Assembly: GCA_938073895.1 (NCBI GenBank)
Contig: CALJFB010000054.1
Coordinates: 1-43,835, forward strand
Origin: an uncultured Flavobacteriaceae bacterium
GTDB taxonomy: Bacteria; Bacteroidota; Bacteroidia; Flavobacteriales; Flavobacteriaceae
DNA length: 43,835 bases
Direction: 5' to 3'
The notes under the pieces were generated by a model that had not been told where the DNA came from, ran no database searches, and saw only the letters and a program-made list of their open reading frames with translations. Positions within the stretch are counted from its first letter, which is position 1. The number at the start of each line of letters is the position of its first letter. A program made the translations under genes and the position numbers. This document shows, in pieces, positions 2,006 through 41,635 of the stretch.

Positions 2006-2419
2006 CTGAAAAAAACAATCGGAATAATTTCAACTTTAATTGCTCTAACATCTTGGGGACAAACAACTAATTCAAAAGTAGAAAAAATGGACACTTCAAA
2101 ATTAACAAACAAAACTGTAAAAGGTGCAATTGATGCTTTACAGGAAAAAGATTCAAAAAGTTGGCTAACCTATTTTACTAGTGATGCTAAAATGACTGAT
2201 GATGGAAATCCACGAGATTTTCAAAATTTTTCAAAAAATGCGGTTGGAGATGAATGGTTCACAGAATTGAATCGTGTAGAGAATAGTGGAAAGGATATTT
2301 ATGGCCATTTAGCAACTAAACAATGGGGTGAATTTGATGTATATTTCAAATTTCACGTTAATAACGATGGTAAAATATATCAATTAGACATTGGCCAAAC
2401 CAGTAAATTAAAAAATTAA
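2006..2419 (+). CDS. Secreted NTF2/SnoaL-like protein, probable non-ATG start
   Basis: Small protein that looks like a single NTF2/SnoaL-fold domain: an N-terminal helix pair, then WGEFDVYFKFHV and GKIYQLDIGQT strands typical of the fold. The first ATG is at 2087, but the same frame continues upstream without a stop to 1994 and encodes a convincing Sec signal, KKTIGIISTLIALTSWGQ, directly after a CTG codon at 2006. I therefore place the start at CTG 2006 (137 residues); from ATG 2087 the product would be 110 residues and cytoplasmic. It ends 5 bases before the carbonic-anhydrase-like gene, so the two are probably co-transcribed. The iota-carbonic anhydrase family also has an NTF2-like fold, but its HHHSS motif is absent here, so no enzyme activity is claimed. 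Confidence 0.6.
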   Translation: MKKTIGIISTLIALTSWGQTTNSKVEKMDTSKLTNKTVKGAIDALQEKDSKSWLTYFTSDAKMTDDGNPRDFQNFSKNAVGDEWFTELNRVENSGKDIYGHLATKQWGEFDVYFKFHVNNDGKIYQLDIGQTSKLKN

Positions 2420-2424
2420 AAATT

Positions 2425-3159
2425 ATGAGTTTTATAAAAACAGTAAAAGAGCATTATTCAAACGCACTAACCACAGAAGACACAGTAAATAAGTTGTTAG
2501 ATATCATTGAAAACAATTTTGGCTTAAAACCAAATCAATTGATGCACGCAGATAGTTTATGTTGTGATGATGTAAATGCAATACAATATCCAAAACGAGC
2601 ATACGAAATGCTTGGACCTTTTAAATTAGGAGGTTTAGATGGCTATCCTTTTGCGGGTTTAACAGGAATGGGAGCATTTGCGCATCACGTTCCTGAAAAT
2701 GGTGCAATAGTTATTTTTTATGCACCACATATTGGAATTACCAAAGATGGAAAAATAGGAGAAATAAATCGTTACGGACAAACCAGTAACTCATCTTGTT
2801 GTGGAGCTGCCAAAGCAGGTTTAACTAAATTAGAAAATAATCAAATCAAAAAAGGACATATTACCGATTTAGATTATCAAATGAACACGATTGAACAAAT
2901 TTTATTAGCGCAAAAAGACCGAATCTTAAATGCCGAAATACCTATAAAAGAATCAACAGAAGTAATTTATGAAGCAATAGATAAACAAATTGATGTTTTA
3001 ATTTCTAAAACAGATTATCCTTGCAAACATATATTTCAAATTGGTGCTGTATTTATAAATGGAGATAGAGATATGGGTTCATTTTGTTCTTACAAACGTT
3101 TTGAACATATAAATTTAGAAACTAATGAGAGAACAGATTTAATGAGTAGCTTTTTATAA
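2425..3159 (+). CDS. Theta-type (LCIB/C-like) carbonic anhydrase family protein
   Basis: Probable zinc beta-type-fold carbonic anhydrase of the LCIB/theta-CA (CGHR-domain) family, which interconverts CO2 and bicarbonate in the cytoplasm. The 244-residue protein has no signal peptide. Family-like blocks: SLCCDDVNAI (Cys46, Cys47, Asp48), AFAHHVPENG (His87, His88), IFYAPHIGI (His102) and SSCCGAAKAG (Cys125, Cys126). This Cys, His, Cys spacing matches the zinc ligands of that family, with Asp48 and Arg58 as candidates for the active-site Asp/Arg pair. It lies 5 bases after the NTF2-like gene and 22 bases before a bestrophin homologue. In Chlamydomonas, LCIB works with bestrophin-like bicarbonate channels, which supports the call. 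The assignment was made by eye; some LCIB-family members are catalytically silent, so activity is not assured. Confidence 0.72.
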   Translation: MSFIKTVKEHYSNALTTEDTVNKLLDIIENNFGLKPNQLMHADSLCCDDVNAIQYPKRAYEMLGPFKLGGLDGYPFAGLTGMGAFAHHVPENGAIVIFYAPHIGITKDGKIGEINRYGQTSNSSCCGAAKAGLTKLENNQIKKGHITDLDYQMNTIEQILLAQKDRILNAEIPIKESTEVIYEAIDKQIDVLISKTDYPCKHIFQIGAVFINGDRDMGSFCSYKRFEHINLETNERTDLMSSFL

Positions 3160-3181
3160 TCCAATATTCTAAAATTAAAAT

Positions 3182-4243
3182 ATGTATACAAAAAAGGTTT
3201 TTAAAATTAAAGATTTAGCAAAATGGACTAGACACGAGACATTTTTGTTTATCGCAATAATTATAACATTTGTAAGTCTGTACTTTTTTCTTGAACTGGA
3301 TTGGTTAAGAATACCTTGGACACCATTAGCATTAATTGGTACTGCTGTTGCTTTTGTTATTGGTTTTCAAAATAATTCTGCTTATGGTAGAATTTGGGAA
3401 GCAAGAAAAATTTGGGGAGGAATTACAAACACTTCAAGAACATTTGGAATGCTTATTCAAGATATGGTAAATAACGAATATGCAACTAAAAACTTGTCTA
3501 ATGAAGAACTTAACAAAGAAATAAAAACACTAACATATAGGCATATTGCTTGGATGACTGCTCTTAGACACGCTATGAGAGTTTCTAAACCTTGGGAAAC
3601 CGTTATTCACGAAAAGACTAACAAAGAATGGAGCGAAATGGTAAGTCCGCCAGAATGGAAGTTAAAAGTTGAGGATGATATGAAACCATATCTTTCTAAA
3701 GAAGATTTGGATTATGTAATGAGTAAAAATAATAAGCAAACTGCAATGCTTTATTTACAATCTCACCATTTAAAAAGTCTTAAAGAAAAAGGTGTGGTTT
3801 GGGAGTTTTCATTTTTAGAATTAGAAGCAATTTTACAAGAACTTTTTACTTTACAAGGTCAGTCCGAACGAATAAAAAACTTCCCTTACCCAAGACAATT
3901 TGCCACGTTAAATCATTATTTTATGTGGATTTTTGTACTATTATTACCATTAGGAATTGTTCCTCAATTTGCTGAAATAGGAAAGGAAATAGTAACTTCT
4001 CATTCACTTATTGGTTCTTTATTTATTTGGCTTTCTATTCCATTTTACGTTGTAGTTGCTTGGATTTTTCATACAATGGAAAAAATAGGAAGAACTGGAG
4101 AAAATCCATTTGAAGGTTCCGCAAATGATGTTCCTATTTCTACTATGGCTCGTGGAATAGAAATTGATTTAAGACAGAATTTAGGAGAATCTTTAGAAGA
4201 TATTCCGAAGCAGTTTCCTGTAATTTACGATACACAGATGTAG
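3182..4243 (+). CDS. Bestrophin family anion channel (UPF0187)
   Basis: Inner-membrane anion channel homologue of bacterial bestrophins, which form pentamers. The diagnostic block NNSAYGRIWEARKIWGG lies at residues 64-80, after two N-terminal membrane segments (about 20-38 and 45-62). Two more segments sit near 248-266 and 273-297, with an ENPFEGSANDVP block at about 308-319, the region that carries the acidic calcium-clasp motif in animal bestrophins. The length of 353 is somewhat longer than typical bacterial members. Family members pass chloride, bicarbonate or, in some bacteria, cations; selectivity cannot be read here. Its place directly behind a theta-type carbonic anhydrase points to bicarbonate or other inorganic-carbon movement. 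No U-tract terminator follows, only a weak inverted repeat at 4263-4296. Confidence 0.85.
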   Translation: MYTKKVFKIKDLAKWTRHETFLFIAIIITFVSLYFFLELDWLRIPWTPLALIGTAVAFVIGFQNNSAYGRIWEARKIWGGITNTSRTFGMLIQDMVNNEYATKNLSNEELNKEIKTLTYRHIAWMTALRHAMRVSKPWETVIHEKTNKEWSEMVSPPEWKLKVEDDMKPYLSKEDLDYVMSKNNKQTAMLYLQSHHLKSLKEKGVVWEFSFLELEAILQELFTLQGQSERIKNFPYPRQFATLNHYFMWIFVLLLPLGIVPQFAEIGKEIVTSHSLIGSLFIWLSIPFYVVVAWIFHTMEKIGRTGENPFEGSANDVPISTMARGIEIDLRQNLGESLEDIPKQFPVIYDTQM

Positions 4244-15281: not shown

Positions 15282-15296
15282 AATAATTAATTTGTT

Positions 15297-15311
15297 GAGG
15301 TTCTCGACCTC
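15297..15311 (-). promoter_or_regulatory. Small hairpin in the rpsP leader
   Basis: A 5-bp stem, gaggt with acctc around a 5-base loop, lies between the predicted promoter and the rpsP start, 16 bases before the start codon. It could affect translation, but it is short and may be chance. Confidence 0.25.
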
Positions 15312-15328
15312 GGTTATTAATAAGTCTG

Positions 15329-41252: not shown

Positions 41253-41420
41253 ATGGCGTTTCCCTTTTTGAAAAAAAACAAAAAGGGTCAGGCTGTACAT
41301 TATATCTTTTTTTTACGCCTAATTTAGTGCAGCATCTTTAAAGGCAACTAGCTAAACTGTTAGGTGTTTTAAGTTACGGTTTTTCAAAAAAAAGGATGCC
41401 ATTTCCATCCTTAACGCAAA
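41253..41420 (+). repeat. Structured intergenic repeat, copy A
   Basis: Begins atggcgtt just after a stop codon and ends ttaacgcaaa. GCGTT (41256-41260) pairs with AACGC (41413-41417) to close the element. Inside, a 9-bp hairpin ccctttttg/caaaaaggg (41262-41270, 41279-41287) is followed by a U-rich/A-rich pairing (atctttttt with aaaaaaggat) and a small ggat/atcc hairpin near the end. A related copy lies at 42927-43039. Confidence 0.65.
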
Positions 41421-41635
41421 ATACTGCACTTATAAAAAAGTGAAATAATATTTATAGCTAATCTGTTTAGAACATAAATATTTACACCTTTAAAATATAA
41501 AAAAAACATATAAAGACATAAAACAGCAACGCCTTAAATTATAATTTAAAAATAAAAGGCGAAAAAAAAATATTCTAAAAACTTTCGTTTAAATAGCATT
41601 CTGTTTGGCTTTAAACTTAACAGTATTTTTATACC
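41421..41635. other. AT-rich intergenic remainder
   Basis: Between copy A of the structured repeat and the reductase terminator, I see no open frame or RNA gene. A cgcctt/aaggcg inverted repeat at about 41532-41562 has no terminator-like U-tract in a useful position. Confidence 0.4.

Follow-up and report, generated by a model that had tools for sequence, protein, structure and literature searches.

An LCIB-type carbonic anhydrase gene paired with a bestrophin gene in Bacteroidota: a candidate route for bicarbonate export

Hydration of CO2 in complexes with a membrane partner is known from DAB and MpsAB. In Staphylococcus aureus, mpsAB replaces a carbonic anhydrase (PMC13144422, PMC6689103; available text), and in Chlamydomonas the proteins LCIB/C interact with the bestrophins BST1 and BST3, for which a two-step recapture was proposed: leaked CO2 is converted to HCO3– by LCIB/C, and BST1–3 then carry HCO3– from the stroma to the lumen (PMC6708349; available text). 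Here, we describe a bacterial locus in which genes of these two families stand side by side. It lies on a stretch of 43,835 nucleotides from an uncultured Flavobacteriaceae bacterium (GenBank assembly GCA_938073895.1, contig CALJFB010000054.1), hereafter referred to as the window, and comprises three frames in the order NTF2-fold protein, LCIB and bestrophin, with gaps of 5 and 22 bases, respectively. As for algal LCIB/LCIC with BST1–3, an LCIB-family protein is paired with bestrophins; unlike in the algae, the bacterial genes are direct neighbours, mostly without a Rubisco-family gene in the genome and often with K+ channel or antiporter genes nearby, and there is neither pyrenoid nor thylakoid. 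Both families, and their partnership in algae, have been described before; a bacterial gene pair was not reported in the open-licence papers listed (titles and abstract starts).

The enzyme belongs to the LCIB family, as an initial annotation of the sequence had proposed: its match to Pfam LCIB_C_CA (PF18599) lies far above the curated cut-off (229.8 bits versus 25), and solved relatives were found by sequence in 6kfs and the diatom PtLCIB4. The top fold match of the predicted structure (predicted local distance difference test, pLDDT, 82.7; residues 65–77 of low confidence) was PtLCIB4 (5b5y, E 2.7e-15). With both of these LCIB/theta-type carbonic anhydrases the window protein shares the fold (template modelling scores, TM, of 0.78 for 5b5y and 0.77 for 6kfs) and the aligned active-site residues, whereas identity in the fold alignments is 26–28% and the window protein is bacterial, 244 residues long and encoded next to a channel gene. 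The Cys-Asp...His...Cys layout noted at the outset is conserved throughout, as Cys46, Asp48, His88, His102, Arg116 and Cys126 do not vary in 84 rows of the close LCIB type, counting the window, or in 30 of the distant type. Position 47, which is Cys in 39 and Ser in 45 of the close rows, and His88 align with Ser47 and His88 of PtLCIB4, the sites mutated in 5b60 and 5b5z. Judged from its sequence, the window protein is likely catalytic as a CO2-hydrating enzyme.

The adjacency itself recurs widely. A peptide-pattern-seeded scan of 84,980 species genomes, which finds close relatives only, gave 105 LCIB loci, and we retained the best 80; L102, where LCIB carries an in-frame stop, was counted as non-adjacent among them, leaving 79 intact loci. 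At 59 of these 80 loci, all in other genomes, a bestrophin gene lies within 1.1 kb and always on the same strand, with the open frames of the pair within 200 bases of each other in 55 cases; the bestrophin stands upstream of LCIB in 57 and downstream in two. Thus, the neighbourhood that the initial annotation had seen in one genome extends across Bacteroidota. Two of the outcomes it had named as refuting, adjacency confined to a single genome and lack of an LCIB domain match, are contradicted by these results. Taking about 4,500 genes per genome and about 4.2 bestrophins each (126 PF25539 matches in 30 of the close-LCIB genomes), we estimate chance adjacency at about 0.2%, and the observed adjacency is far beyond chance. 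Moreover, when neighbours of 114 loci and the window were clustered (34 of them with short flanks), only LCIB itself was commoner than bestrophin (65 loci), and the next family was present at 31. By LCIB motif, adjacency was found for 37 of 38 loci of the CCDD type, to which the window belongs, and for 23 of 42 of the CSDD type.

LCIB was present in 31 of 296 genomes of a phylum sample and in 6 of 299 of a family sample, the window's genome being counted in both. Four other sampled genomes (G494, G564, G479 and G579) contain the close LCIB type of the window, and bestrophin is adjacent in two of them, G579 and G564, the latter corresponding to L041. A distant LCIB type (L002–L006 and L011–L034; larger stretches L115–L119 and L124–L148) was sampled at 30 loci, of which a single family (f23) contributes 24, and keeps the active-site residues; frequent neighbours, named by eye, are glyoxalase-like and DEAD-helicase-like genes. 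Spread by plasmids or viruses was considered and rejected, as LCIB had no plasmid match and none was confirmed in viral contigs. In Spirosoma lacussanchae, the interrupted LCIB gene of L102 (5968-6747) has no bestrophin nearby.

The second partner is likewise what it had been taken for. It matches Pfam Bestrophin_2 (PF25539) with 144.9 bits against a cut-off of 27, and by sequence it is related to the bacterial bestrophin KpBest (PDB 4wd7 and others). The two differ in the pore neck, which reads Thr-Phe-Phe in the window channel, with Thr in place of Ile at the first position, versus Ile-Ile-Phe in KpBest. The exchange I66F shifts KpBest towards Cl– and yields the eukaryotic neck Ile-Phe-Phe (PMC8496536; available text). 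Each of the 61 bestrophin rows linked to LCIB (60 distinct; 58 Thr-Phe-Phe and three Ile-Phe-Phe) has Phe at this position, versus 37 of 81 unlinked ones, the latter being a biased rate from a chosen set (60 of the 126 PF25539 places plus further loci, with 28 linked ones removed). L121 and L041 are the same gene, and the split bestrophin of L039 is left out of the comparison. The latter, adjacent to LCIB in the metagenome-assembled genome (MAG) OLB12 (L039:4944-5974), is spread over three frames, by a true frameshift or an assembly error. Overall, the neck Phe supports a predicted passage of anions through the bestrophin, without tying it to LCIB.

LCIB is paired with channels which are not orthologous, and among our findings this speaks most strongly for a shared function. 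On a bestrophin tree of 66 rows, for which near copies were thinned, the linked label changes 11 times, at least nine of which are forced by starred branches, and a single clade of all linked bestrophins was rejected in an approximately unbiased (AU) test on 48 rows (p-AU 5e-4). The window illustrates this directly. Its LCIB is sister to that of Allomuricauda L037 on a quick LCIB tree (Shimodaira–Hasegawa-like approximate likelihood-ratio test, 99). At L037, the genes follow the usual order of DoxX, NTF2, K+ channel, bestrophin and LCIB. The window's bestrophin, by contrast, groups with four unlinked flavobacterial bestrophins (100/100), and a common group with the L037 bestrophin was rejected (p-AU 5e-64). 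Hence, the pairing of enzyme and channel came about repeatedly, and the window's combination is best read as a new pairing. The four unlinked relatives, from related genomes (L269–L272), have neighbours matching none of the window's and no window-like LCIB beside them, L269 ending at a contig end. Adjacency shows 13 changes when mapped onto the LCIB tree (at least five forced), which indicates that linkage was lost as well. The adjacency therefore arose or was remade several times, and some of the 11 changes could be losses of linkage.

Taken together, we lean, if only slightly, towards a two-step bicarbonate pathway from the cytoplasm to the outside, in which CO2 hydration and HCO3– efflux serve pH and cation balance. 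In the first step, LCIB would act in the cytoplasm and hydrate CO2 from metabolism, yielding HCO3– and H+, as its family, fold and invariant residues suggest; in the second, the bestrophin would pass HCO3– out down the inside-negative potential, to which its family and neck residues point. As CO2 crosses the membrane freely, the net effect would be an H+ left in the cytoplasm. In our view, the proposed algal transport from stroma to lumen would have the same side-to-side direction as the bacterial one from cytoplasm to outside. The analysis itself establishes the two families, their conserved adjacency and repeated pairing, the neck residues and the interchangeability of the cation genes; catalysis by the enzyme, permeation of HCO3–, its direction, the physiological trigger and the purpose of the pair are what we infer here.

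Genes for cation transport fit this pathway. Common neighbours of the pair are, in the usual order, an AraC-type regulator, a short-chain dehydrogenase/reductase (SDR), a DoxX-like protein, NTF2, sometimes an aldehyde dehydrogenase (ALDH), a K+ channel or Na+/H+ antiporter, bestrophin and LCIB, with families named from one representative each (K+ channel PF07885; antiporter PF00999 and TIGR00831, above cut-off). A cation gene is present at 39 of the 59 linked loci, namely a K+ channel at 29 and an antiporter at 10, never both; among the 27 loci with a DoxX-like gene, the respective numbers are 16, 10 and none with both, leaving one with neither. Its position is upstream of the bestrophin, in most cases with no gene in between: no more than 150 bases separate the end of the K+ channel from the bestrophin frame in 28 of 29 cases, and the same is true of 7 of 11 antiporter frames. 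The motif [ST][IV]G[YF]GD, which we take to be the K+ filter signature, is intact in 31 of 31 K+ channels, and on the quick LCIB tree, which has many weak forks, K+ channel and antiporter are swapped in five parsimony changes. With a K+ channel, K+ and HCO3– would leave while H+ stays, amounting to a K+/H+ exchange driven by freely diffusing CO2; the antiporter variant would exchange cation and H+ directly. This equivalence would explain why an antiporter can stand in for the K+ channel.

The same neighbours could also belong to a valve for osmotic pressure or membrane potential, in which the bestrophin, mainly a Cl– or mixed anion channel, sheds salt together with the K+ channel and LCIB merely buffers the pH. 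Bestrophins carry Cl– (PMC8496536; available text), and both the K+ channel with its intact filter motif near 29 of 59 pairs and the Phe neck would suit such a valve. However, it leaves unexplained why bestrophins of several branches stand beside LCIB, as well as the 20 of 59 pairs without a cation gene, and we consider it quite improbable.

A number of observations weigh against the two-step export of bicarbonate. Of the 80 close loci, 21 are non-adjacent (two with a bestrophin about 5 kb away, 18 with none and the interrupted L102, also with none). Bestrophin is adjacent at none of the 30 sampled distant-type loci, and 25 of 35 sampled LCIB genomes, all 25 of the distant type, gave no PF25539 match, so that bestrophins of this family are dispensable for LCIB. 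KpBest, which has been studied more closely than any other bacterial bestrophin, conducts Na+ (PMC8496536; available text). Bestrophins of the same branch that are unlinked likewise carry the neck Phe, which hence marks the branch and not linkage to LCIB. Three structurally characterised LCIB homologues are without carbonic anhydrase activity according to a review (PMC5876011; available text), and family membership is accordingly no proof of catalysis. Furthermore, neither K+ channel nor antiporter occurs at 20 of the 59 linked loci or in the window, so the ion-balance reading draws on the relatives, and pH control does not explain the neighbouring ALDH, SDR and AraC genes.

The genome setting bears on what the pair might be for. 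We searched 34 LCIB genomes, that is the window's, the four sampled ones and 29 of 30 close-locus genomes (G586 being omitted because it corresponds to G564); the linked pair is not present in all of them. A beta-carbonic anhydrase matched in every one, and LCIB as the sole carbonic anhydrase of the cell was consequently rejected. DabA matched in seven genomes, and 31 gave no match to the Rubisco large family, while the three matches may be true Rubisco or Rubisco-like. The window's genome (92.67% complete) has one beta-carbonic anhydrase match and none to RuBisCO_large, the Rubisco on which assignment of a CO2-concentrating mechanism would depend; for energised inorganic-carbon uptake, DabA alone was searched and had no match in this genome. 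LCIB would therefore be an extra carbonic anhydrase in mostly Rubisco-less organisms. A likeness to DAB or MpsAB would lie in the coupling of CO2 hydration to a membrane partner, although the protein families are different. We read the pair as supplementing the ordinary beta-carbonic anhydrase as a module for pH and cation balance and not as a carbon-concentrating system.

An alternative option could be the supply of bicarbonate: either the channel admits HCO3– for dehydration by LCIB, or LCIB traps entering CO2 as HCO3–, feeding carboxylases at low CO2 as a carbon-supply module of a heterotroph. Carbonic anhydrases commonly feed biosynthetic carboxylases. However, an inside-negative membrane disfavours passive bicarbonate uptake, since accumulating an anion against the potential is beyond what a passive channel can do, which makes carbon capture the weaker option. 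Of the initial proposal that the locus captures or exports inorganic carbon, export is thus the part we favour. The conversion of leaked CO2 to HCO3– proposed for algal LCIB/C would agree with supply (PMC6708349; available text); the beta-carbonic anhydrase already present in 34 of 34 genomes, DabA in seven and the missing Rubisco-large match in 31, including the window's, speak against it, and we hold it to be unlikely.

The NTF2-fold protein is less firmly tied to the pair. Its predicted structure is NTF2-like (mean pLDDT 85.9; best Z 13.3), a fold common to many other proteins, and fold searches agree with the initial assignment; a SnoaL_2 Pfam match stayed below cut-off (E 0.006), and a 23-row profile gave no significant match to any PDB sequence (best E 0.15). 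The fold matches shown are mainly C-terminal domains of orange carotenoid proteins, ketosteroid isomerases and other NTF2-like proteins. With Z about 13, the closest folds are the orange carotenoid protein C-terminal domain and CTDH, the free homologue of that domain, a resemblance that could point to a hydrophobic pocket. The suggested kinship to iota-carbonic anhydrases found no support: the family (COG4337) is not among the Pfam and NCBIfam matches, the catalytic residues not having been aligned, and no such entry is among the 50 Foldseek and 50 VIA-align rows shown, which excludes nothing. As to the export signal also suggested, the N-terminus encoded from 2006 is hydrophobic, and 18 of 25 related NTF2 frames (manual count) have a lipoprotein-like Cys after the hydrophobic stretch. 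The window has Trp there, and no ATG, GTG or TTG precedes the stretch, so that export of the window protein is uncertain. Its signal (2006-2086) may be decaying or may use a rare start.

An NTF2 gene accompanies only 22 of the 59 linked pairs, in all 22 cases together with a DoxX-like gene and in 21 also with a cation-transport gene. This weakens the three-part unit originally envisaged, of which a joint system of LCIB and bestrophin would remain. The window keeps only NTF2, LCIB and bestrophin of the fuller unit, with LCIB before bestrophin, and is in this sense reduced and reordered. The sole other genome of the genus available for comparison has no LCIB, and the bare trio in this exact order has therefore been seen in the window's genome alone; a chimeric contig could in principle be its source. 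Downstream of bestrophin and LCIB, the loci L094, L097 and L100, from three MAGs with the label Flammeovirgaceae or Cyclobacteriaceae, have genes of two more families in common (clusters c50 and c51).

The fuller unit could also be a stress or detoxification cassette, in which the pair, with AraC, SDR, DoxX-like, NTF2 and ALDH genes, acidifies the cytoplasm under electrophile stress, as KefB and KefC do in Escherichia coli. Many pairs, chiefly those of the CCDD type, do have ALDH, SDR, DoxX-like and NTF2 genes as neighbours. Given that DoxX-like genes occur at just 27 and NTF2 genes at 22 of 59 linked loci, and that the window has NTF2 alone of these genes, we regard such a cassette as very doubtful.

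The features of the locus are collected in Table 1; positions and spacings of the three frames agree with the initial annotation. Counts of promoter-like sites and promoter patterns in the window are below shuffle means and terminator-like sites near the shuffle mean, so it is the spacing that suggests a single transcription unit. Elsewhere in the window, a Flavo-1 RNA (41282-41422) and an S16 ribosomal protein leader (15286-15321) reach Rfam gathering scores.

Table 1. Coordinates of the NTF2-LCIB-bestrophin locus in the window.
Feature	Position	Strand	Evidence
NTF2-fold small protein	2006..2419	+	Predicted fold NTF2-like; window compared with 22 related frames; first in-frame ATG at 2087
LCIB-type carbonic anhydrase, 244 aa	2425..3159	+	PF18599, E 3.1e-68; PDB 6kfs, E 3.7e-29; model versus PtLCIB4 5b5y, TM 0.78
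Cys46-Cys47-Asp48 of LCIB	2560..2568	+	Cys46 and Asp48 invariant; 47 aligns with site of PtLCIB4 S47R mutant
His88 of LCIB	2686..2688	+	Aligned to PtLCIB4 His88 (H88A mutant 5b5z); numbering derived by hand from S47
His102 of LCIB	2728..2730	+	Invariant, 84 close and 30 distant rows
Cys125-Cys126 of LCIB	2797..2802	+	Cys126 invariant; 125 is Cys in 84/84 close and 20/30 distant rows
Bestrophin-family channel, 353 aa	3182..4243	+	PF25539, E 4.8e-42; KpBest structures, E 3.4e-17 to 1.6e-15
Bestrophin pore-neck segment	3341..3367	+	Thr54, Phe58 and Phe62 at KpBest I62, I66 and F70 positions; neck roles from PMC8496536 (available text)

In the open-licence literature found, LCIB and bestrophins are treated jointly only within the CO2-concentrating mechanism of algae, and there it is still debated whether LCIB is active and what the bestrophins do. 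As a tentative extension, the pair could represent a general bacterial unit for CO2-to-bicarbonate export, which together with a K+ channel or antiporter would exchange cations for H+ at the expense of CO2, and what LCIB and bestrophins do jointly in the algal pyrenoid might reuse a partnership that exists outside photosynthesis. The recruitment of bestrophins of different branches beside LCIB provides independent evidence of a working link between the two families. Being small, expressible proteins in mostly Rubisco-less organisms, the bacterial partners make their joint action and the direction of bicarbonate directly testable. Bacterial bestrophins are poorly understood, and for one of their branches the pair suggests a role in physiology.

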